This document shows positions 4,383 through 63,830 of a stretch of 64,000 nucleotides of DNA, one piece after another. Below the pieces are notes generated by a model, which ran no database searches, had not been told where the DNA came from, and saw only the letters and a list, made by a program, of their open reading frames with translations. This stretch comes from Salvelinus alpinus (lineage: Eukaryota; Chordata; Actinopteri; Salmoniformes; Salmonidae), in the NCBI RefSeq assembly GCF_045679555.1, contig NC_092098.1, forward strand, positions 14,894,538-14,958,537, in the 5' to 3' direction. The translations under genes and the position numbers were made by a program. The stretch's first letter is position 1. Every line of letters starts with the position of its first letter.

Positions 4383-4753
4383 TGTAACGGCTGTCGTCGG
4401 TGGAAGAAGGTGAGGACCAAGGTGCAGCGTGGTAAGTGTTCATGATATTTAATAATAATCAAAACTGAACACTGAATAACAAAACAACAAAGAAACAACC
4501 GAAAACAGTTCTGTCTGGTACAGACACACAAAGACTGAAAATAACCACCCACCAAACCCAACAGAAAACAGGCTACCTAAATATGGATCCCAATCAGGGA
4601 CAACGATTGACAACTGCCTCTGATTGAAAACCATATTAGGCCAAACAGAAAAAGAAAATCATAGAAAAACTAACATAGACAACCCACCCAACTCACGCCC
4701 TGACCATACTAAAACAAAAGACTAAACAAAGGAACTAAGGTCAGAACGTGACA
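4383..4753 (-). mobile_element. solo LTR-like element (TG...CA)
   Basis: The element starts TGTAACGGCTG and ends ACGTGACA, so it has TG...CA termini. It is flanked by a near-perfect 5-bp duplication (tccag at 4378-4382, accag at 4754-4758). Read on the minus strand it carries an ATTAAA poly(A)-type signal shortly before its 3' end. No internal region or second LTR is present, so it fits a solo LTR. A diverged relative lies at about 45735-46228 next to the minisatellite. Confidence 0.6.
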
Positions 4754-5358: not shown

Positions 5359-5469
5359 AAGCTGCTCTGCACAGTTTAGTTTATTATTCAGATACACTAT
5401 GAATCTACACTAAGAAATAACACTTGATTCATTGCGCTCAATTGAAAAGAACACTGTTTTTACTTTCCA

Positions 5470-6462
5470 ATGGCGTTCAGTGAAGTGGATGGATATCAAG
5501 CAGTACAATACTGTTTTCCTCTCCACAACTCGTCTTGCGTTAAGGAGGTGCGATCCATAGCAGAAAATATACTCATGCACCTTTTTTTTTTCTCTGTGTC
5601 AGCATTCACAGTGTTTGTGAATCTGCTGGTGATCATCTCCATCTCTCACTTCAAGCAGCTCCACACTCCAACCAACCTGCTCATCCTCTCTCTGGCTGTG
5701 GCAGATCTGCTGGTTGGGATTGTTGTGATTCCAGTGGAAGCCATCAAAGTCATCGAGTCATGCTGGTATCTTGGTGAAACAATGTGTTCAGTTTTTCATG
5801 GGATTGTTTTTTCTGTCATTTTTGCATCTCTATACAATTTAGTTATCATAGCTGTTGACAGATATGTTGCTGTTTGTGATCCTTTACTCTACATTTCAAA
5901 AATAACTATTGGAAAAACATTGACTTCTATATTCCTAACCTGGATATTTTCTTTTATATATAATCTTGTTATTCTATACTGTAATGGTCAATGGTATCGT
6001 TCTCAGGCAAACAAGAATTGCCATGGAGAATGTGTGTTGATTATCAGTTTTACATGGGGAATTGTTGACCTTTTTGTCTCCTTTGTTGCACCTTGTTCTG
6101 TTATTATATGCTTATACATGAACATTTTCAAAGTGGCAAGAATTCACGTAAAAGTGATGAATATCACAACTAGGATCAAGATGTCAGAGAGTAAGGCAAC
6201 CAAAACACTGGGGGTTGTGTTATCGGTTTTCCTCGTCGGTTGGATCACATATTATGTAGGTTCACTTACTGAGGACTACCTGGCACATTCAGATGTCATC
6301 ATAGCATTTCTCTCCTGGGTTGTGTACATTCATTCATTCCTTAACCCTCTGATCTATGCATTGTTTTACCCATGGTTCAAAACAGCAGTAAGACACATCT
6401 TAACCTTACATATCCTGGCACCCTCATCCTCCTTAATAAATCTCCTTCCAGAAAATTGTTAG
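5470..6462 (+). CDS. taar: trace amine-associated receptor (olfactory class A GPCR), non-classical amine site
   Basis: Single-exon 330-residue receptor, a normal length for teleost TAARs, which detect amines in olfactory neurons through G-protein signalling at the ciliary membrane. There is an N-glycosylation site at N20-S-S. Class A landmarks are N51 (1.50), D79 (2.50), C106 (3.25), D130-R131-Y132 (3.49-3.51), W158 (4.50), P208 (5.50), Y216 (5.58), W258 (6.48), W283 (7.40), Y286 (7.43) and NPLIY at 292-296 (7.49-7.53). The TAAR fingerprint at the end of TM7 reads HSFLNPLIYALFYPWF, with H for the first N. The amine-binding D3.32 is replaced by V113, while D200 sits at 5.42, the pattern known for the large teleost clade III TAARs. 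P6.50 is T260, which is unusual. The start was chosen because it gives a complete N-terminus before TM1. Subfamily number is not assigned. Confidence 0.95.
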   Translation: MAFSEVDGYQAVQYCFPLHNSSCVKEVRSIAENILMHLFFFSVSAFTVFVNLLVIISISHFKQLHTPTNLLILSLAVADLLVGIVVIPVEAIKVIESCWYLGETMCSVFHGIVFSVIFASLYNLVIIAVDRYVAVCDPLLYISKITIGKTLTSIFLTWIFSFIYNLVILYCNGQWYRSQANKNCHGECVLIISFTWGIVDLFVSFVAPCSVIICLYMNIFKVARIHVKVMNITTRIKMSESKATKTLGVVLSVFLVGWITYYVGSLTEDYLAHSDVIIAFLSWVVYIHSFLNPLIYALFYPWFKTAVRHILTLHILAPSSSLINLLPENC

Positions 6463-13256: not shown

Positions 13257-14569
13257 TCAGGGGGAAGCTGGTTCCAGGACAGAGAAGAGCTTGGACTGGG
13301 CTGAATGGGAGCTGCACTCAGGGCAAGAGATCTGAGGTGGCAGAATGGAGTGCTCGGGTTGGGGTGTGAGCATAGCCTGAAGGTAGGGAGGGGCAGTTCC
13401 TCTTGCTATTCCATAAGTAAGCACCATGGTCTTGTAGTGGATGTGAGCTTCAACTGGATGCCAGTGGAGTGTGCGGAGGAGCAGTGTGACATGAGAGAAC
13501 TTGGGAAGGTTGAACACCAGGCGTGCTTCAGCATTCTGGATAAGTTGCAGAGGTTTGGTGGCGGGGAACCCAACCAACAGTGAGTTGCAGTAGTCCAGAC
13601 GGGAAAGGACAAGTGCCTGGATTAGGACCTGCGCCGCTTCCTGTGTGAGATAGGATCGTACTCTACGGATGTTATAGAGCATGAACCTTGAGGAGCGGGT
13701 CACTTGCTTTGATGTTTGCAGAGAACATGGTGTCTCCCAGGGTCACTCCAAGGTTCCTTGCACTCTGGAGTTGTCAATCGTGATGGAGGGCTTTGAGCGA
13801 GCAGGCCTTCCCGGGAGGAGGAGCACTTCCGTCTTGTCAAGGTTGAGCTGGTTGTCCAAGTTGAGATATCTGCCAGGCACACAGAGATGCGTGTCGCCAC
13901 CTGTGTGTCAGAAGGGGCGAAGGAGAAAAGTAGTTGAGTGTCATCCATATAGCAATGACAGGAAAGACCATGTGAGGATATGGAGCCGAATGACTTGGTG
14001 TACAGAGAGAAGAGGGCCTAGAACCGAACCATGGGGGACACCAGTAGTGAGAGTACGTGGTGCAGTCACAGATCCTCTCCATGTCACCTGGTAGGAGTGG
14101 CCTGCAAAGTAGAATGAAATCCAAGAGTGTGCATAGCCTGAGACGCTCAGCCCTGAGAGAGAGGAGAGGAGGATCTGATGGTCCACTGTGTCGAAGGCAG
14201 CGGATAGATCTAGGAGAATGAGAACACAGGAGAGAGAGTCAACTTTGGCAGTGCAGAAAGCCTCCTTGACACAGAGAAGAGCAGTCTCGGTTGAGTGACC
14301 CGTCTTGAAGCCTGACAGGTTAAGGTCAAGAAGATCGTTCTGTGAGATAACGAGAAAGTTGATCAGAGACAGCACGCTCCAGTGTTTTGGAAAGAAAAGG
14401 ATACAGGTCTATAGCTTTTGATGTCAGATGAGGGGGGGGGGGGGGGGGGGATGAGCGGGCAGGTTGTCGGGCGGCCAGACCTCACTAGTCGCAAGATGTC
14501 ATCTGGAGAGAGAGGGGAGAAAGAGGTCAAGGCGTAGGGTAGTTCTGTGTTTGAAACCAGTGGACTCAA
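13257..14569 (-). pseudogene. LINE reverse transcriptase domain (L2/CR1-like)
   Basis: Minus-strand pieces in order: DIKSYRPVSF (14569 side), TGHSTETALLCVKEAF and LILLDLSAAFDTVDH (14375-13941), GVPHGSVLGPLL, then CYMDDTQLLFSF with an intact YMDD polymerase box at about 13930-13960, and ALVLSRLDYCNSLLVGFP with NAEARLVFNLPK (13703-13257). These are the consecutive reverse transcriptase motifs of L2-like LINEs. Frames change between motifs, and an 19-base G run at 14432-14450 lies in the coding region. It copied element RNA into DNA when active; this copy cannot make one continuous protein. Confidence 0.88.
14432..14450 (+). repeat. poly(G) run of 19
   Basis: Nineteen consecutive G within the LINE reverse transcriptase region, probably grown from a proline-codon run on the coding strand. 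Confidence 0.95.
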
Positions 14570-15610: not shown

Positions 15611-16153
15611 GTAGTGTCATGTCCCTGGCATCATTACACTGAAGACTGTTTAGTTTATCAAATATCTGTAATTATTATTACGTAATTAACTAATCAGGTA
15701 GATGTAAACTAGGAAGTCGGGGCACAAGAGGAAAATATTCAGATTACAAAGTTATCATTTTCCTAATATAACTTTCAGATATTTTAATATCTGAATAATT
15801 AGTCTTCTAATTAATGAATTATTCTTTACCTCACGTTAGTCTCATTCAAACGTAGTAAATTGTTGGTTATCTGCACGAACCCAGTCTTCACTATGAATCA
15901 TCCATACATCATTTATTTACTAACTAAATAATCACAGAAATGCATAAACAAACAAACAGTAGATATAGTTACAAGGAAATAATAGCGGAGTTTCCCTAGT
16001 GGGATAAACCGGTATCGTGGCTTGGTGGACAAAAGGGAAGTGTGGGTCGACGGAGATAAAAGACACTACAAAGTTGATAATTATATCAATTGAAATGCTA
16101 ATCCTTTGCACATGAACGCTCACTCATTCTGGAATAATTGCAATCAATATATA

Positions 16154-17760
16154 CAGTGGGGAGAACAAGTATTTGATACACTGCCGATTTTGCAGGTTTT
16201 CCTACTTACAAAGCATGTAGAGGTCTGTAATTTTTATCATAGGTACACTTCAACTGTGAGAGACGGAATTTAAAACAAAAATCCAGAAAATCACATTGTA
16301 TGATTTTTAAGTAATTAATTCGCATTTTATTGCATGACATAAGTATTTGATACATCAGAAAAGCAGAACTTAATATTTGGTACAGAAACCTTTGTTTGCA
16401 ATTACAGAGATCATACGTTTCCTGTAGTTCTTGACCAGGTTTGCACACACTGCAGCAGGGATTTTGGCCCACTCCTCCATACAGACCTTCTCCAGATCCT
16501 TCAGGTTTCGGGGCTGTCGCTGGGCAATACGGACTTTCAGCTCCCTCCAAAGATTTTCTATTGGGTTCAGGTCTGGAGACTGGCTAGGCCACTCCAGGAC
16601 CTTGAGATGCTTCTTACGGAGCCACTCCTTAGTTGCCCTGGCTGTGTGTTTCGGGTCGTTGTCATGCTGGAAGACCCAGCCACGACCTATCTTCAATGCT
16701 CTTACTGAGGGAAGGAGGTTGTTGGCCAAGATCTCGCGATGCATGGCCCCATCCATCCTCCCCTCAATACGGTGCAGTCATCCTGTCCCCTTTGCAGAAA
16801 AGCATCCCCAAAGAATGATGTTTCCACCTCCAAGCTTCACAGTTAGGATGGTGTTCTTGGGGTTGTACTAATCCTTCTTCTTCCTCCAAACACGGCGAGT
16901 GGAGTTTAGACCAAAAAGCTCTATTTTTGTCTCATCAGACCACATGACCTTCTCCAATTCCTCCTCTGGATCATCCAGATGGTCATTGGCAAACTTCAGA
17001 CGGGCCTGGACATGCGCTGGCTTGAGCAGGGGGACCTTGCGTGCGCTGCAGGATTTTAATCCATGACGGCGTAGTGTGTTACTAATGGTTTTCTTTGAGA
17101 CTGTGGTCCCAGCTCTCTTCAGGTCATTAACCAGGTCCTGCTGTGTAGTTCTGGGCTGATCCCTCACCTTCCTCATGATCATTGATGCCCCACGAGGTGA
17201 GATCTTGCATGGAGCCCCAGACCGAGGGTGATTGACCGTCATCTTGAACTTCTTCCATTTTCTAATAATTGCGCCAACAGTTGTTGCCTTCTCACCAAGC
17301 TGCTTACCTATTGTCCTGTAGCCCATCCCAGCCTTGTGCAGGTCTACAATTTTATCCCTGATGTCCTTACACAGCTCTCTGGTCTTGGCCATTGTGGAGA
17401 GGTTGGAGTCTGTTTGATTGAGTGGGTGGACAGGTGTCTTTTATACAGGTAACGAGTTCAAACAGGTGCAGTTAATACAGGTAATGAGTGGAGAACAGGA
17501 GGGCTTCTTAAAGAAAAACTAACAGGTCTGTGAGAGCCGGAATTCTTACTGGTTGGTAGGTGATCAAATACTTATGTCATGCAATAAAATGCGAATTAAT
17601 TACTTAAAAATCATACAATGTGATTTTCTGGATTTTTGTTTTAAATTCCGTCTCTCACAGTTGAAGTGTACCTATGATAAAAATTACAGACCTCTACATG
17701 CTTTGTAAGTAGGAAAACCTGCAAAATCGGCAGTGTATCAAATACTTGTTCTCCCCACTG
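16154..17760 (-). mobile_element. Tc1-like transposon, nearly intact, IR/DR type
   Basis: The termini cagtggggagaacaagtatt are perfect inverted copies, flanked by TA at 16152-16153 and 17761-17762. The terminal inverted repeats are about 200 bp (16154-16352 and 17563-17760) and appear almost identical. Each has an outer and an inner copy of an aagtatttgat direct repeat, the IR/DR arrangement known for Sleeping Beauty-like elements. Near-identity of the arms implies recent insertion. It sits within the solo LTR. Confidence 0.95.
16370..17392 (-). pseudogene. Tc1-like transposase with only two nonsense codons
   Basis: One minus-strand frame from the ATG at 17392 to the stop at 16370 spans 341 codons, the exact usual length of this family (340 residues). 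The N-terminal paired-like DNA-binding region ([20 protein letters not shown], then the GRPR-like turn as HPRSGAP) is complete. The catalytic triad is present: D in [12 protein letters not shown] in [11 protein letters not shown], and E in [11 protein letters not shown], in DD34E spacing. Only two in-frame stops interrupt it: TAG at 16870-16868 and TGA at 16780-16778. No frameshift was found. It would have catalysed cut-and-paste transposition in the nucleus. Confidence 0.93.
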
Positions 17761-18469
17761 TATATTCACACTCAGTGTGTCGTCGTGATCTCTGTTGGAA
17801 AGTTTGTTTCTGTTGGAGAGTTCGTCCGCCCTCTCTCTCTCTGCCATGGTTAGAATGGATAGTTCAGAGTAACATTCAGCAATGTTGTTATCCACGTGGA
17901 ATGGTTAAGAATTCAGCAATCTACTCAAACCATAGCCCTCTCGGTTATCGAGGTAAGCTGGTCTGGGCTCAAACCTTAGCCCTCTCGTAATTGAGGTAAG
18001 CTTGGTCTGAATATAACCCCCACCTTGGGAATTTATATTCGGAAGAGCAGAAAGGGGCTGTCCCATGACGCCAGATCAATGTCTGTGCTCATGGGGCGGG
18101 AATCGGAGTTCCTCTCATTAAACAGTTTAAAATCACATTACATAATTTCACAAATAGTTTCACCTTTACTCATTCATTTTATACAACAATTAGATTCAAG
18201 CCTCATAACAGACTCTTGTATAAACAGGGATATGGTAATGTTGCTGTATTGTCTCATGAGTTTCACAAAATTGTACAAAACGGTCCAGTTCGTAGCTGGA
18301 TACTTCACCGACCGTTTATACATTCTCCAGAACATGAATATTGTTCAGTTCTCAAGTTGTGACGTGGAAGAAATTCCTTTGTTCTCCTGTGAAACATCTT
18401 CTCTCTTTATAATGTCTGGCCATGAGGAAGAGAGTCTCCTCCAGGAATTTACGACCTGAGATAACAGCA

Positions 18470-28665: not shown

Positions 28666-30260
<1,595 letters not shown>

Positions 30261-36218: not shown

Positions 36219-37815
<1,597 letters not shown>

Positions 37816-37995
37816 AATTAATGATAGATACTCATTGATTTATTGTTAATCAAAAAAGTGGTGGCATGCCTGCTTTGTTGTTTTTTGACCTGCAGATATC
37901 CTCTTTAACTTGGTTCTGGCACAAACATGTTGTTTGTTTGAGCTAGTTTGCTGACTTATGAGTTTGTCAGTATTAGGACTGGATCATAACAGGTC
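37816..37995. other. flank between Tc1 and minisatellite
   Basis: About 180 bp of unassigned DNA that forms the left border of the tandem array. Confidence 0.4.
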
Positions 37996-40900
37996 GTTGG
38001 AACATCAGTAAATAGTGGAACCATGTGTGTTGGAAAACTCCCTCTATGGAACAGCAGTAAATAGTGGAACCATGTGTGTTGGAAAACTCCCTCTGTCGAA
38101 CAGCAGTAAATAGTGGAACCATGTGTGTTGGAAAACTCCCTCTATGGAACAGCAGTAAATAGTGGAACCATGTGTGTTGGAAAACTCCCTCTGTGGAACA
38201 GCAGTAAATAGTGGAACCATGTGTGTTGGAAAACTCCCTCTGTGGAACAGCAGTAAATAGTGGAACCATGTGTGTTGGAAAACTCCCTCTGTGGAACAGC
38301 AGTAAATAGTGGAACCATGTGTGTTGGAAAACTCCCTCTGTGGAACAGCAGTAAATAGTGGAACCATGTGTGTTGGAAAACTCCCTCTGTGGAACAGCAG
38401 TAAATAGTGGAACCATGTGTGTTGGAAAACTCCCTCTGTGGAACAGCAGTAAATAGTGGAACCATGTGTGTTGGAAAACTCCCTCTGTGGAACAGCAGTA
38501 AATAGTGGAACCATGTGTGTTGGAAAACTCCCTCTGTGGAACAGCAGTAAATAGTGGAACCATGTGTGTTGGAAAACTCCCTCTGTGGAACAGCAGTAAA
38601 TAGTGGAACCATGTGTGTTGGAAAACTCCCTCTGTGGAACAGCAGTAAATAGTCGAACCATGTGTGTTGGAATACTCCCTCTGTGGAACAGCAGTAATTA
38701 GTGGAACCATGTGTGTTGGAAAACTCCCTCTGTGGAACAGCAGTAAATAGTGGAACCATGTGTGTTGGAAAACTCCCTCTGTGGAACAGCAGTAAATAGT
38801 GGAACCATGTGTGTTGGAAAACCCCCTCTATGGAACAGCAGTAAATAGTGGAACCATGTGTGTTGGAAAACTCCCTCTGTGGAACAGCAGTAAATAGTGG
38901 AACCATGTGTGTTGGAAAACTCCCTCTGTGGAACAGCAGTAAATAGTGGAACCATGTGTGTTGGAAAACTCCCTCTATGGAACATCAGTAAATAGTGGAA
39001 CCATGTGTGTTGGAAAACTCCCTCTATGGAACAGCAGTAAATAGTGGAACCATGTGTGTTGGAAAACTCCCTCTGTGGAACAGCAGTAAATAGTGGAACC
39101 ATGTGTGTTGGAAAACTCCCTCTATGGAACAGCAGTAAATAGTGGAACCATGTGTGTTGGAAAACTCCCTCTGTGGAACAGCAGTAAATAGTGGAACCAT
39201 GTGTGTTGGAAAACTCCCTCTGTCGAACAGCAGTAAATAGTGGAACCATGTGTGTTGGAAAACTCCCTCTATGGAACAGCAGTAAATAGTGGAACCATGT
39301 GTGTTGGAAAACTCCCTCTGTGGAACAGCAGTAAATAGTGGAACCATGTGTGTTGGAAAACTCCCTCTGTGGAACAGCAGTAAATAGTGGAACCATGTGT
39401 GTTGGAAAACTCCCTCTGTGGAACAGCAGTAAATAGTGGAACCATGTGTGTTGGAAAACTCCCTCTGTGGAACAGCAGTAAATAGTGGAACCATGTGTGT
39501 TGGAAAACTCCCTCTGTGGAACAGCAGTAAATAGTGGAACCATGTGTGTTGGAAAACTCCCTCTGTGGAACAGCAGTAAATAGTGGAACCATGTGTGTTG
39601 GAAAACTCCCTCTGTGGAACAGCAGTAAATAGTGGAACCATGTGTGTTGGAAAACTCCCTCTGTGGAACAGCAGTAAATAGTCGAACCATATGTGTTGGA
39701 ATACTCCCTCTGTGGAACAGCAGTAATTAGTGGAACCATGTGTGTTGGAAAACTCCCTCTGTGGAACAGCAGTAAATAGTGGAACCATGTGTGTTGGAAA
39801 ACTCCCTCTGTGGAACAGCAGTAAATAGTGGAACCATGTGTGTTGGAAAACCCCCTCTATGGAACAGCAGTAAATAGTGGAACCATGTGTGTTGGAAAAC
39901 TCCCTCTGTGGAACAGCAGTAAATAGTGGAACCATGTGTGTTGGAAAACTCCCTCTATGGAACATCAGTAAATAGTGGAACCATGTGTGTTGGAAAACTC
40001 CCTCTATGGAACAGCAGTAAATAGTGGAACCATGTGTGTTGGAAAACTCCCTCTGTGGAACAGCAGTAAATAGTGGAACCATGTGTGTTGGAAAACTCCC
40101 TCTATGGAACAGCAGTAAATAGTGGAACCATGTGTGTTGGAAAACTCCCTCTGTGGAACAGCAGTAAATAGTGGAACCATGTGTGTTGGAAAACTCCCTC
40201 TGTCGAACAGCAGTAAATAGTGGAACCATGTGTGTTGGAAAACTCCCTCTATGGAACAGCAGTAAATAGTGGAACCATGTGTGTTGGAAAACTCCCTCTG
40301 TGGAACAGCAGTAAATAGTGGAACCATGTGTGTTGGAAAACTCCCTCTGTGGAACAGCAGTAAATAGTGGAACCATGTGTGTTGGAAAACTCCCTCTGTG
40401 GAACAGCAGTAAATAGTGGAACCATGTGTGTTGGAAAACTCCCTCTGTGGAACAGCAGTAAATAGTGGAACCATGTGTGTTGGAAAACTCCCTCTGTGGA
40501 ACAGCAGTAAATAGTGGAACCATGTGTGTTGGAAAACTCCCTCTGTGGAACAGCAGTAAATAGTGGAACCATGTGTGTTGGAAAACTCCCTCTGTGGAAC
40601 AGCAGTAAATAGTGGAACCATGTGTGTTGGAAAACTCCCTCTGTGGAACAGCAGTAAATAGTGGAACCATGTGTGTTGGAAAACTCCCTCTATGGAACAG
40701 CAGTAAATAGTGGAACCATGTGTGTTGGAATACTCCCTCTGTGGAACAGCAGTAATTAGTGGAACCATGTGTGTTGGAAAACTCCCTCTGTGGAACAGCA
40801 GTAAATAGTGGAACCATGTGTGTTGGAAAACTCCCTCTGTGGAACAGCAGTAAATAGTGGAACCATGTGTGTTGGAAAACCCCCTCTATGGAACAGCAGT

Positions 40901-43900
40901 AAATAGTGGAACCATGTGTGTTGGAAAACTCCCTCTGTGGAACAGCAGTAAATAGTGGAACCATGTGTGTTGGAAAACTCCCTCTATGGAACATCAGTAA
41001 ATAGTGGAACCATGTGTGTTGGAAAACTCCCTCTATGGAACAGCAGTAAATAGTGGAACCATGTGTGTTGGAAAACTCCCTCTGTGGAACAGCAGTAAAT
41101 AGTGGAACCATGTGTGTTGGAAAACTCCCTCTATGGAACAGCAGTAAATAGTGGAACCATGTGTGTTGGAAAACTCCCTCTGTGGAACAGCAGTAAATAG
41201 TGGAACCATGTGTGTTGGAAAACTCCCTCTGTGGAACAGCAGTAAATAGTGGAACCATGTGTGTTGGAAAACTCCCTCTGTGGAACAGCAGTAAATAGTG
41301 GAACCATGTGTGTTGGAAAACTCCCTCTGTGGAACAGCAGTAAATAGTGGAACCATGTGTGTTGGAAAACTCCCTCTGTGGAACAGCAGTAAATAGTGGA
41401 ACCATGTGTGTTGGAAAACTCCCTCTGTGGAACAGCAGTAAATAGTGGAACCATGTGTGTTGGAAAACTCCCTCTGTCGAACAGCAGTAAATAGTGGAAC
41501 CATGTGTGTTGGAAAACTCCCTCTATGGAACAGCATTAAATAGTGGAACCATGTGTGTTGGAAAACTCCCTCTGTGGAACAGCAGTAAATAGTGGAACCA
41601 TGTGTGTTGGAATACTCCCTCTGTGGAACAGCAGTAAATAGTGGAACCATGTGTGTTGGAAAACTCCCTCTGTGGAACAGCAGTAAATAGTGGAACCATG
41701 TGTGTTGGAAAACTCCCTCTATGGAACAGCAGTAAATCGTGGAACCATGTGTGTTGGAAAACTCCCTCTGTGGAACAGCAGTAAATAGTGGAACCATGTG
41801 TGTTGGAAAACTCCCTCTATGGAACAGCAGTAAATAGTGGAACCATGTGTGTTGGAAAACTCCCTCTGTGGAACAGCAGTAAGTAGTGGAACCATGTGTG
41901 TTGGAAAACTCCCTCTGTGGAACAGCAGTAAATATTGGAACCATGTGTGTTGGAAAACTCCCTTTGTGGAACAGCAGTAAATAGTGGAACCATGTGTGTT
42001 GGAAAACTCTCTCTGTGGAACAGCAGTAAATAGTGGAACCATGTGTGTTGGAAAACTCCCTCTATGGAACAGCAGTAAATAGTGGAACCATGTGTGTTGG
42101 AAAACTCCCTCTGTGGAACAGCAGTAAATAGTGGAACCATGTGTGTTGGAAAACTCCCTCTATGGAACAGCAGTAAATAGTGGAACCATGTGTGTTGGAA
42201 AACTCCCTCTATGGAACAGCAGTAAATAGTGGAACCATGTGTGTTGGAAAACTCCCTCTGTGGAACAGCAGTAAATAGTGGAACCATGTGTGTTGGAAAA
42301 CTCCCTCTATGGAACAGCAGTAAATAGTGGAACCATGTGTGTTGGAAAACTCCCTCTGTGGAACAGCAGTAAATAGTGGAACCATGTGTGTTGGAAAACT
42401 CCCTCTGTGGAACAGCAGTAAATAGTGGAACCATGTGTGTTGGAAAACTCCCTCTGTGGAACAGCAGTAAATAGTGGAACCATGTGTGTTGGAAAACTCC
42501 CTTTGTGGAACAGCAGTAAATAGTGGAACCATGTGTGTTGGAAAACTCTCTCTGTGGAACAGCAGTAAATAGTGGAACCATGTGTGTTGGAAAACTCCCT
42601 CTGTGGAACAGCAGTAAATAGTGGAACCATGTGTGTTGGAAAACTCCCTCTGTGGAACAGCAGTAAATAGTGGAACCATGTGTGTTGGAAAACTCCCTCT
42701 GTGAAACAGCAGTATATAGTGGAACCATGTGTGTTGGAAAACTCCCTCTATGGAACAGCAGTAAATAGTGGAACCATGTGTGTTGGAAAACTCCCTCTAT
42801 GGAACAGCATTAAATAGTGGAACCATGTGTGTTGGAAAACTCCCTCTGTGGAACAGCAGTAAATAGTGGAACCATGTGTGTTGGAAAACTCCCTCTGTGG
42901 AACAGCAGTAAATAGTGGAACCATGTGTGTTGGAAAACTCCCTTTGTGGAACAGCAGTAAATAGTGGAACCATGTGTGTTGGAAAACTCTCTCTGTGGAA
43001 CAGCAGTAAATAGTGGAACCATGTGTGTTGGAAAACTCCCTCTGTGGAACAGCAGTAAATAGTGGAACCATGTGTGTTGGAAAACTCCCTCTGTGGAACA
43101 GCAGTAAATAGTGGAACCATGTGTGTTGGAAAACTCCCTCTGTCGAACAGCAGTAAATAGTGGAACCATGTGTGTTGGAAAACTCCCTCTATGGAACAGC
43201 ATTAAATAGTGGAACCATGTGTGTTGGAAAACTCCCTCTGTGGAACAGCAGTAAATAGTGGAACCATGTGTGTTGGAATACTCCCTCTGTGGAACAGCAG
43301 TAAATAGTGGAACCATGTGTGTTGGAAAACTCCCTCTGTGGAACAGCAGTAAATAGTGGAACCATGTGTGTTGGAAAACTCCCTCTATGGAACAGCAGTA
43401 AATAGTGGAACCATGTGTGTTGGAAAACTCCCTCTGTGGAACAGCAGTAAATAGTGGAACCATGTGTGTTGGAAAACTCCCTCTGTGGAACAGCAGTAAA
43501 TAGTGGAACCATGTGTGTTGGAAAACTCCCTCTGTGGAACAGCAGTAAATAGTGGAACCATGTGTGTTGGAAAACTCCCTCTGTGGAACAGCAGTAAATA
43601 GTGGAACCATGTGTGTTGGAAAACTCCCTCTATGGAACAGCAGTAAATAGTGGAACCATGTGTGTTGGAAAACTCCCTCTGTGGAACAGCAGTAAATAGT
43701 GGAACCATGTGTGTTGGAAAACTCCCTCTGTGGAACAGCAGTAAATAGTGGAACCATGTGTGTTGGAAAACTCCCTCTGTGGAACAGCAGTAAATAGTGG
43801 AACCATGTGTGTTGGAAAACTCCCTTTGTGGAACAGCAGTAAATAGTGGAACCATGTGTGTTGGAAAACTCTCTCTGTGGAACAGCAGTAAATAGTGGAA

Positions 43901-45710
43901 CCATGTGTGTTGGAAAACTCCCTCTGTGGAACAGCAGTAAATAGTGGAACCATGTGTGTTGGAAAACTCCCTCTGTGGAACAGCAGTAAATAGTGGAACC
44001 ATGTGTGTTGGAAAACTCCCTCTGTGGAACAGCAGTAAATAGTGGAACCATGTGTGTTGGAAAACTCCCTCTGTCGAACAGCAGTAAATAGTGGAACCAT
44101 GTGTGTTGGAAAACTCCCTCTATGGAACAGCATTAAATAGTGGAACCATGTGTGTTGGAAAACTCCCTCTGTGGAACAGCAGTAAATAGTGGAACCATGT
44201 GTGTTGGAATACTCCCTCTGTGGAACAGCAGTAAATAGTGGAACCATGTGTGTTGGAAAACTCCCTCTGTGGAACAGCAGTAAATAGTGGAACCATGTGT
44301 GTTGGAAAACACCCTCTATGGAACAGCAGTAAATCGTGGAACCATGTGTGTTGGAAAACTCCCTCTGTGGAACAGCAGTAAATAGTGGAACCATGTGTGT
44401 TGGAAAACTCCCTCTATGGAACAGCAGTAAATAGTGGAACCATGTGTGTTGGAAAACTCCCTCTGTGGAACAGCAGTAAGTAGTGGAACCATGTGTGTTG
44501 GAAAACTCCCTCTGTGGAACAGCAGTAAATAGTGGAACCATGTGTGTTGGAAAACTCCCTCTGTGGAACAGCAGTAAATAGTGGAACCATGTGTGTTGGA
44601 AAACTCCCTCTGTGGAACAGCAGTAAATAGTGGAACCATGTGTGTTGGAAAACTCCCTCTGTGGAACAGCAGTAAATAGTGGAACCATGTGTGTTGGAAA
44701 ACTCCCTCTGTGGAACAGCAGTAAATAGTGGAACCATGTGTGTTGGAAAACTCCCTCTGTGGAACAGCAGTAAATAGTGGAACCATGTGTGTTGGAAAAC
44801 TCCCTCTGTGGAACAGCAGTAAATAGTGGAACCATGTGTGTTGGAAAACTCCCTCTGTGGAACAGCAGTAAATAGTGGAACCATGTGTGTTGGAAAACTC
44901 CCTCTGTGGAACAGCAGTAAATAGTGGAACCATGTGTGTTGGAAAACTCCCTCTGTGGAACAGCAGTAAATAGTGGAACCATGTGTGTTGGAAAACTCCC
45001 TCTGTGGAACAGCAGTAAATAGTGGAACCATGTGTGTTGGAAAACTCCCTCTGTGGAACAGCAGTAAATAGTGGAACCATGTGTGTTGGAAAACTCCCTC
45101 TGTGGAACAGCAGTAAATAGTGGAACCATGTGTGTTGGAAAACTCCCTCTGTGGAACAGCAGTAAATAGTGGAACCATGTGTGTTGGAAAACTCCCTCTG
45201 TGGAACAGCAGTAAATAGTGGAACCATGTGTGTTGGAAAACTCCCTCTGTGGAACAGCAGTAAATAGTGGAACCATGTGTGTTGGAAAACTCCCTCTGTG
45301 GAACAGCAGTAAATAGTGGAACCATGTGTGTTGGAAAACTCCCTCTGTGGAACAGCAGTAAATAGTGGAACCATGTGTGTTGGAAAACTCCCTCTGTGGA
45401 ACAGCAGTAAATAGTGGAACCATGTGTGTTGGAAAACTCCCTCTGTGGAACAGCAGTAAATAGTGGAACCATGTGTGTTGGAATACTCCCTCTGTGGAAC
45501 AGCAGTAAATAGTGGAACCATGTGTGTTGGAAAACTCCCTCTGTGGAACAGCAGTAAATAGTGGAACCATGTGTGTTGGAAAACTCCCTCTATGGAACAG
45601 CAGTAAATAGTGGAACCATGTGTGTTGGAAAACTCCCTCTGTGGAACAGCAGTAAATAGTGGAACCATGTGTGTTGGAAAACTCCCTCTGTGGATATCAG
45701 CAGTAAATCC
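37996..45710 (+). repeat. 49-bp minisatellite, 157 units
   Basis: Unit of 49 bp, with the words tggaaccatgtgtgttgg, aaaactccctctgtgg and aacagcagtaaatag in order. The word gtaaatag begins at 38008 in the first unit and at 45652 in the last perfect one: 7644 bp, exactly 156 steps of 49. All variant words I measured recur at multiples of 49, so no insertion or deletion was seen across the array. Units differ by point changes (ctatgg, ctgtcgaa, aatactccc, aaccccctc, catcag, cattaaa, cctttgtgg, gtaattag). The last unit has a 2-bp insertion and then decays. The minus strand lacks stop codons in all frames. Frames up to 793 residues are by-products of the repeat; I do not call a gene. Confidence 0.98.
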
Positions 45711-45734
45711 TGGAACCTATGTGTGTTGGAAGAC

Positions 45735-46228
45735 TCCTCTGTTGTATGTGTTAGTTGGTCAGGACGTGAGTTTGGGTGGGCATTCTATGTTGTCTGTTTC
45801 TATGTTGGTTTAAGGACTTCCTCTGTGGAATGGCTCTCAATAGTGGAGGCAGGTGTGTTGGCATACTCCCTCTAATGGAGCAGTCAGTATTTAGGTAGGT
45901 GTGTGTTCACAGTGTTCGTTGTGGGATGGTTGTCTCCTGTGGAATCAGTGTCTGTATGTTACGCCACAGCGGAACTAGTGTCCGGTGTTTTGGTAAGTTC
46001 GTTCTGTTTTATGTAGTCATGTTTATCCTGGTGTCATGCGTTCTTCACGTTGTATGTAAGTTCGTGTCCAGGTCTGTCTACATTCGTTTATTTGTTTTGT
46101 AATTATTCAAGTGTTTGTCGTGTTTTTCCGTTTTGTCTATTAAATCAATATGTATTCACAACCCGCTGCATTTTGGTCAAATCCCTGCTACTCCTCTTCG
46201 GATGAGGAGAAGGAGGAAGCCCGTTACA
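45735..46228 (+). mobile_element. LTR-like block mixed with satellite-like words
   Basis: The plus strand follows the order of the solo LTR at 4383-4753 read on its minus strand: gtcaggacgtgagttt, tctatgttgtctg, ggctctcaat, tatttaggtagg, then tctattaaatcaatatg (poly(A)-type signal) and a cccgttaca end. In 45810-45895 it also contains satellite words in register. The 5' TG end is not clear. Satellite units resume immediately after the ttaca end. Confidence 0.6.
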
Positions 46229-46390
46229 GTGGAACAGCAGTAAATAGTGGAACCATGTGTGTTGGAAAACTCCCTCTGTGGAACAGCAGTAAATAGTGGA
46301 ACCATGTGTGTTGGAAAACTCCCTCTGTGGAACAGCAGTAAATAGTGGAACCATGTGTGTTGGAAAACTCCCTCTATGGAAAAGCAGTAC
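46229..46390 (+). repeat. four further units of the 49-bp minisatellite
   Basis: The gta word occurs at 46240, 46289, 46338 and 46387, again 49 bp apart. The first lies 588 bp (12 x 49) after the last perfect unit of the main array. Confidence 0.95.
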
Positions 46391-46950
46391 TGATCATAAT
46401 TTAGCCCAGGTGAGACCTTCCCACCTAAGAAAAAACGATTGCAGCGATGCCCTGTTGCTTATAGTGACTCAAGTGGCCATTGATTGACACACCTCATGAG
46501 GTTCCATGAAGCATTTCAATTACCTAGAAGACATCAATGACTGTGCATCGCACACACACAGTAAAGGTGCTCTCTTTATCAGCTTCAAAAAAGTTGATAG
46601 TATTTCAACCACATAAAATTTGCATCCAAGCCAAACTGATATCTTACTAGAAACATATTGGCTCGTTTTCAAATTTTTTAATTACCTTAAAATTTGTCAA
46701 ACTGACGTCATTTGGAATGTTTGCATGGAAAATCTTTCCCATATATATTTTTTTATGTTATTGCATTGTGTCCCCGGTCCCTAAACGTCTTTGCTGCACA
46801 AGAGAAGCAGAGGTGAAAGAGAAAACTTTACTGATGTCAACTAGATTGAAGCATTCTATTGATGTATGCCGTTTTCTGGTGAGCAACGGTTTATTTACTC
46901 TTCTAGGGTAACAAGTAATGATGGTAGAAAATTATAGACTAGTGTAATAA
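46391..46950. other. AT-rich DNA, nothing recognised
   Basis: No gene or named repeat found. Confidence 0.35.
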
Positions 46951-60912: not shown

Positions 60913-61020
60913 TATAAATATTTTGTCATTGTTGTTCTGGACCCACTGCACGCTACTGCCCGCAAGTCTACGTGACATATTCAAGTTCGCCACCCGCCAC
61001 CATGTCCATTGGTTGCGCCT

Positions 61021-61196
61021 GTTGATCTGCCCTGTACAGGCCTCATGTGCACCCAGTTGTGCCTGTTGATCTGCCCTGTACAGGCCTCATGTGCACCCAG
61101 TTGTGCCTGTTGATCTGCCCTGTACAGGCCTCATGTGCACCCAGTTGTGCCTGTTGATCTGCCCTGTACAGGCCTCATGTGCACCCAGTTGTGCCT
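61021..61196 (+). repeat. 44-bp tandem repeat, four perfect units
   Basis: Units begin gttgatctgccctgtacagg at 61021, 61065, 61109 and 61153 and are identical. A partial fifth follows from 61197 (the third base onward diverges). Confidence 0.95.

Positions 61197-63830
<2,634 letters not shown>

Follow-up and report, generated by a model that had tools for sequence, protein, structure and literature searches.

What has held a 49-bp unit to exactly the same length through 157 tandem copies in the genome of Salvelinus alpinus, and what happened at the right edge of the array, where that regularity gives out? The window considered here is the whole stretch of DNA that was analysed, 64,000 nucleotides of contig NC_092098.1, and all positions below are counted within it. 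The array is a long yet ordinary non-coding minisatellite with a well-kept block structure. For the locus as a whole, we regard as probable an account that combines growth by duplication of blocks of units with an insertion of a long terminal repeat (LTR), the latter with a junction that appears blended in the assembly. The repeat units fall into three parts, as follows.

37998–45690, plus strand: main array, made up of 157 units, each exactly 49 bp long, consensus TGGAACAGCAGTAAATAGTGGAACCATGTGTGTTGGAAAACTCCCTCTG.
45690–45741, plus strand: degenerate final unit, with three substitutions, three inserted bases and one deleted base relative to the unit.
46229–46389, plus strand: second array segment, 3.3 units, beginning at the unit's GTGGA directly after an LTR-like element.

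Tandem Repeats Finder reports a period of 49 over 37998–45742 (158.0 copies, 98% matches, 0% indels), and cutting the sequence every 49 bp from 37998 yields 157 units, each with at most three substitutions relative to the consensus. The 11-base word GTGTGTTGGAA occurs 156 times in the array; its occurrences are spaced by 49 bp in 154 cases and by 98 bp in one, the latter spanning unit 35, in which the word is broken by the substitution G28A. The earlier note had described a 157-unit array with a 49-bp period that varies by point change only, and had proposed a Tandem Repeats Finder run as a check. Its count and spacing are right, the period is constant as it had expected, and variation by point change holds throughout the 157 units, which carry 79 substitutions of 17 kinds over 7693 bp (~1.0%) and no indel. 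Units identical to the consensus number 98 of the 157, and there are 17 distinct unit types when the consensus is included. Because the unit at 45690–45741 contains indels, the strict 49-bp length ends with unit 157. Within the window, the 49-bp unit is listed by Tandem Repeats Finder solely at 37998–45742 and 46229–46389; the earlier note was silent on this second stretch of 3.3 units, on the LTR-like element and on the absence of stops from the unit's minus strand.

A minisatellite (VNTR) is recognized by head-to-tail units of roughly 10–100 bp, here 157 units of 49 bp, and by interspersed variants with block-wise recurrence, which the array also displays. A search of the window for known RNA families gave no matches at the gathering threshold, and a literature search with four words of 20–23 bases taken from the 49-bp unit yielded no paper. 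Earlier work on salmonid minisatellites exists, and we make no claim that the sequence of the present unit is novel.

The order of the variant units carries the main evidence on how the array grew. Each unit was written as one letter according to its type, and the resulting variant map contains the following stretches.

37998–40986, plus strand: units 1–61, one block present three times (20, 20 and 21 units), the copies differing by a cost of 3–5.
41281–44514, plus strand: units 68–133, a second set of variants, with blocks recurring at lags of 9, 18, 19, 27, 34 and 53 units.
44515–45445, plus strand: units 134–152, 19 consecutive units, all identical to the consensus.

The three left-hand blocks (units 1–20, 21–40, and 41–61) were compared by an alignment permitting whole-unit gaps, in which cost is the sum of substitutions and whole-unit gaps; the cost is 4 between the first and second blocks, 3 between the second and third, and 5 between the first and third, whereas 48 other block pairs have a mean cost of 13.8 and a minimum of 10. 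The best ungapped diagonal of the variant map has a score of 17.2; when unit order was shuffled 400 times, the mean was 7.4 and the highest score 13.4. Recurring eight-unit words have 20 occurrences (mean 0.06 and maximum 4 in 500 shuffles), and for all word lengths of 4–8 units, recurring words that include at least three variant units outnumber those in every one of 500 shuffles. The match count per lag gives a weak signal, its value of 10 at lag 21 equalling the highest value of 2000 shuffles (mean 5.9). Variant units thus follow a non-random order with recurring blocks, which supports the view that the array grew as whole-unit blocks were duplicated, with turnover read from the sequence of a single allele. 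A model of amplification and contraction is available for minisatellite variant repeat maps, and block duplication is read here in the manner outlined for that model (PMC2674676), although here the turnover is deduced from one allele. Under such a process, tandem amplification of the 49-bp unit would have proceeded through in-register events that copied or deleted whole units and blocks of units, either by unequal exchange or by repair-driven copying. Rare substitutions would arise and then spread by block duplication, leaving a map of recurring variant blocks.

Block duplication also bears on the exactness of the period. The count of mutational events assumes that each of the 17 kinds of substitution arose about once and was then copied, with 17 as the minimum. 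Indels arise at a ratio to substitutions of 1:10 to 1:6. At this ratio, approximately 17 point events would be accompanied by 1.7–2.8 indels, and the probability of seeing none is 0.06–0.18; selection on the period is therefore unnecessary to explain their absence. Were all 79 substitutions independent, the expectation would rise to about 8–13 indels and a complete lack of them would be striking, but the recurrence of variant blocks disfavours such independence. An exact period could thus arise where length events involve whole numbers of units and point events have been too few to bring many indels with them. Very recent expansion, ongoing homogenization by unequal exchange, and selection on the period had all been offered in the earlier note; growth or homogenization by in-register exchange or duplication is supported by the best diagonal of the variant map, which exceeds every shuffled one, whereas the appeal to selection proves superfluous.

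A partial parallel is offered by the human minisatellite MSY1, described as having a 25-bp unit of fixed length with substitution variants arranged in blocks; as reported there, units of other lengths were never observed, length mutants had gained or lost 1–3 units, and a hairpin is predicted for the unit, with a role in mutation that the authors see as supported by the fixed length (PMC2599865). As in MSY1 so described, the present array consists of substitution variants of a fixed-length unit, arranged in blocks. In contrast to that Y-linked locus with its hairpin-predicted unit, the present array has interspersed blocks that reappear some distance apart, and the 49-bp unit folds no better than shuffled sequence: the unit dimer is equalled or bettered by 196 of 200 shuffles on one strand and by 191 of 200 on the other. 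A hairpin-forming unit of the kind predicted for MSY1 is thus unsupported here. Minisatellite loci are also mentioned in passing in PMC7595290.

The regular array is succeeded on its right by sequence that requires a separate explanation, for which three features are needed.

45695–46228, plus strand: LTR-like element with an inferred span of 534 bp and CGTTACA at its right end, flanked on each side by GTGGA; its left end is not clean.
45816–45905, plus strand: mosaic stretch within the element, its first 74 bp ~81% identical to the array, which also follows the LTR backbone.
4383–4753, minus strand: second, diverged LTR copy of 371 bp, running from TGTCACG to CGTTACA and used for comparison.

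Solo LTRs are characterized by TG...CA ends, a target duplication of 4–6 bp, and dispersed copies. The element at the right edge resembles them in its CGTTACA end, in the GTGGA on both sides, and in having a relative elsewhere in the window, to which it aligns with 81% identity over 59 bp (E 3.7e-07), so that dispersal is represented by one diverged copy, at 4383–4753 on the minus strand. It departs from them in its left end, which is not clean, and in its centre, which resembles the array. The right terminus is CA and the inferred left terminus is TATCA, the left end having been placed by likeness to the copy at 4383–4753. Across 45690–45741, 46 of the 52 letters fit the array and 30 fit the other LTR copy, and some of the deviations from the array resemble the start of that copy marginally (their score is reached by 149 of 3000 random mutants). 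As the left end is not clean and this likeness is marginal, the target duplication rests on the assumed start; the GTGGA at 45690–45694 and at 46229–46233 represents such a duplication only if the inferred start of the element is right. The presence of GTGGA on both sides, together with the resumption of the array at 46229, points to insertion of an LTR into a unit. By this less certain step, an LTR retroelement would have inserted near the right end of the array with a 5-bp target duplication (GTGGA), and the outcome would be a solo-LTR-like element lying between 157 units and 3.3 units.

The comparison copy at 4383–4753 (minus strand) has CTGGT and CTGGA beside its ends, a match of four bases in five at the position of a target duplication. 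Plasmid and phage collections, which are not expected to hold fish DNA, contained no match to 45740–46235, and of the patterns made from the unit or the LTR, four had no matches in viral contigs and one had none in genome contigs, where fish DNA is likewise not expected.

Within the element, likeness to the array is confined to a part. The stretch 45816–45889 scores 69 against the array, compared with a maximum of 24 in 300 shuffles, and the deviations of 45816–45905 from the array point to the other LTR copy, against which the stretch scores 71.2; pure array scores 42.2, and the highest score among 3000 random array mutants is 58. On either side, 45740–45815 and 45905–46228 are not array-like above chance, with 115 and 98 of 300 shuffles, respectively, scoring as well; any blend would consequently have to be patchy. 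The LTR–array junction in the assembly is probably a consensus blend, to judge from these mixed likenesses: reads or haplotypes with the LTR and others without it would have been merged into one sequence. A junction of such blended appearance leaves both the right edge and the copy number uncertain.

A related reading, compatible with the account preferred here, extends the assembly problem to the array itself, such that its length and uniformity are partly a product of collapse or of a homogenizing consensus, chiefly at the right end. The mosaic stretch at 45816–45905 fits this reading, as does the position of the 19 identical units in a row beside the degenerate junction, a run of at least that length having P 0.004 under unit shuffling. 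True recent local amplification would yield the same run, however, and the left part of the array keeps distinct variants in recurring, non-identical blocks, which are not expected from collapse. The 19-unit run may belong to the junction problem or may reflect recent amplification, and we consider an assembly contribution to the length and uniformity of the array to be possible, if doubtful.

The array might instead owe its origin to the LTR. Here, a segment of an LTR subfamily would have been duplicated in tandem and expanded, leaving 45695–46228 as parent or sister of the 49-bp unit. Tandem repeats arising from transposable elements are reported (PMC3389668; PMC6947457), the element adjoins both array segments, and the 81% identity at 45816–45889 amounts to about one and a half array-like units. 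The other LTR copy nevertheless has no similarity to the unit above chance (score 14 vs. a shuffle mean of 15.8, with 277 of 300 shuffles as good), and the flanking GTGGA suggests that the element entered an array already in place; we consider an origin of the unit from the LTR unlikely. We give still less credence to the fuller version, by which the unit arose inside an LTR subfamily, array and LTR continue to exchange short patches, and 45695–46228 is a real intermediate between retroelement end and minisatellite instead of an assembly blend.

The mosaic could also be real by itself, if repeated short conversion or template switching had taken place between array and LTR. The letters traceable to a single parent do alternate, with 12 switches among 33 informative positions. 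Neighbouring stretches on which both alignments were forced in the same way switch at similar rates (14 of 34 and 15 of 42), and the switch count alone therefore proves little. Moreover, the alternation is on a scale of <10 bp, and conversion tracts are usually longer than this. A real mosaic of this kind is very improbable, and a blended consensus at the junction remains the preferred reading of the right edge.

The coding potential of the array is related to a property of its unit. The minus strand of the consensus contains no stop in any frame, such that any number of consensus units stays open, while a stop is present on the plus strand. Among the open frames listed for the minus strand of the array, the longest is the following.

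39024–41522, minus strand: open frame of 832 aa.

We judge this frame to be a by-product of the stop-free unit. An open frame kept across the array, as expected of a repeat protein, was not found: a minus-strand stop triplet is present in 40 of the 157 units (each read with two bases on either side), and the three minus-strand frames of the array contain 18, 8 and 18 stops. Coding on the minus strand was rejected on these grounds. That 49 is not a multiple of three had been advanced against coding; the conclusion stands by virtue of the stops, but the argument is insufficient, the minus strand of the unit being stop-free in all frames. A Pfam scan covered ten open frames of the window. As a whole protein, the 832-aa frame scores above the cut-off for DUF2016 (93.3 bits vs. 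24.3) and Myb_Rap1 (30.4 vs. 27.1) and below it for Kyano_Gp96, and no single stretch of the frame passes alone for any of the three. These scores are read as many weak matches summed over repetitive sequence. That selection maintains the period, be it for chromatin packing (3 × 49 = 147 bp, from arithmetic alone) or for a minus-strand repeat protein, is scarcely credible, for although the period is exact across 7.7 kb, at least one stop-free strand occurs in 5.4% of 20,000 shuffled units, and the 832-aa frame yields two whole-protein scores above cut-off, zero indels have P 0.06–0.18 at about 17 point events, stops interrupt the minus strand, none of the three Pfam families has a single passing stretch, and the dimer folds no better than shuffles.

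Other features of the window were recorded alongside. The outer flanks of the array, at 37978–37989 and 46389–46399, share ACTGGATCATAA / ACTGATCATAA; of 5000 random pairs, 1.7% score as high, and the shared bases may be a target duplication that encloses the array as a whole. Immediately to the left of the array, at 37147–37470 on the minus strand, a remnant of Tc1 type contains a Sleeping Beauty HTH domain. Two inverted copies of 203 bp, 100% identical, at 16149–16351 and 17563–17765, enclose a 190-aa minus-strand frame (16871–17440) with Tc1 / Sleeping Beauty DNA-binding domains and a further frame at 16373–16777, and 16149–17765 looks like a young Tc1-like element. Fragments with reverse transcriptase domains (RVT_1) are located at 13944–14408 and 29698–30087 (minus strand). 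A 338-aa open frame at 5446–6459 on the plus strand contains a receptor domain of the rhodopsin type that is almost complete (7tm_1, E 7.9e-47). Among simple repeats, a tandem repeat with a 44-bp unit is present at 61012–61199 (4.3 copies, 99% matches), and dinucleotide repeats of TG × 84 and GA × 70 are present at 28668–28835 and 61869–62008, respectively.

The LTR-like element with its blended-looking junction is the part of the locus that deserves a second look, and it carries a warning: with a right edge of this appearance, the copy number in the assembly and the boundary of the LTR are unsafe to use without reads. If the mosaic were true, the locus would catch a minisatellite in the course of being born from an LTR. 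In Salvelinus alpinus, the array exemplifies a long minisatellite that owes its shape to the duplication of entire blocks, and it is likely to be a length-polymorphic marker.
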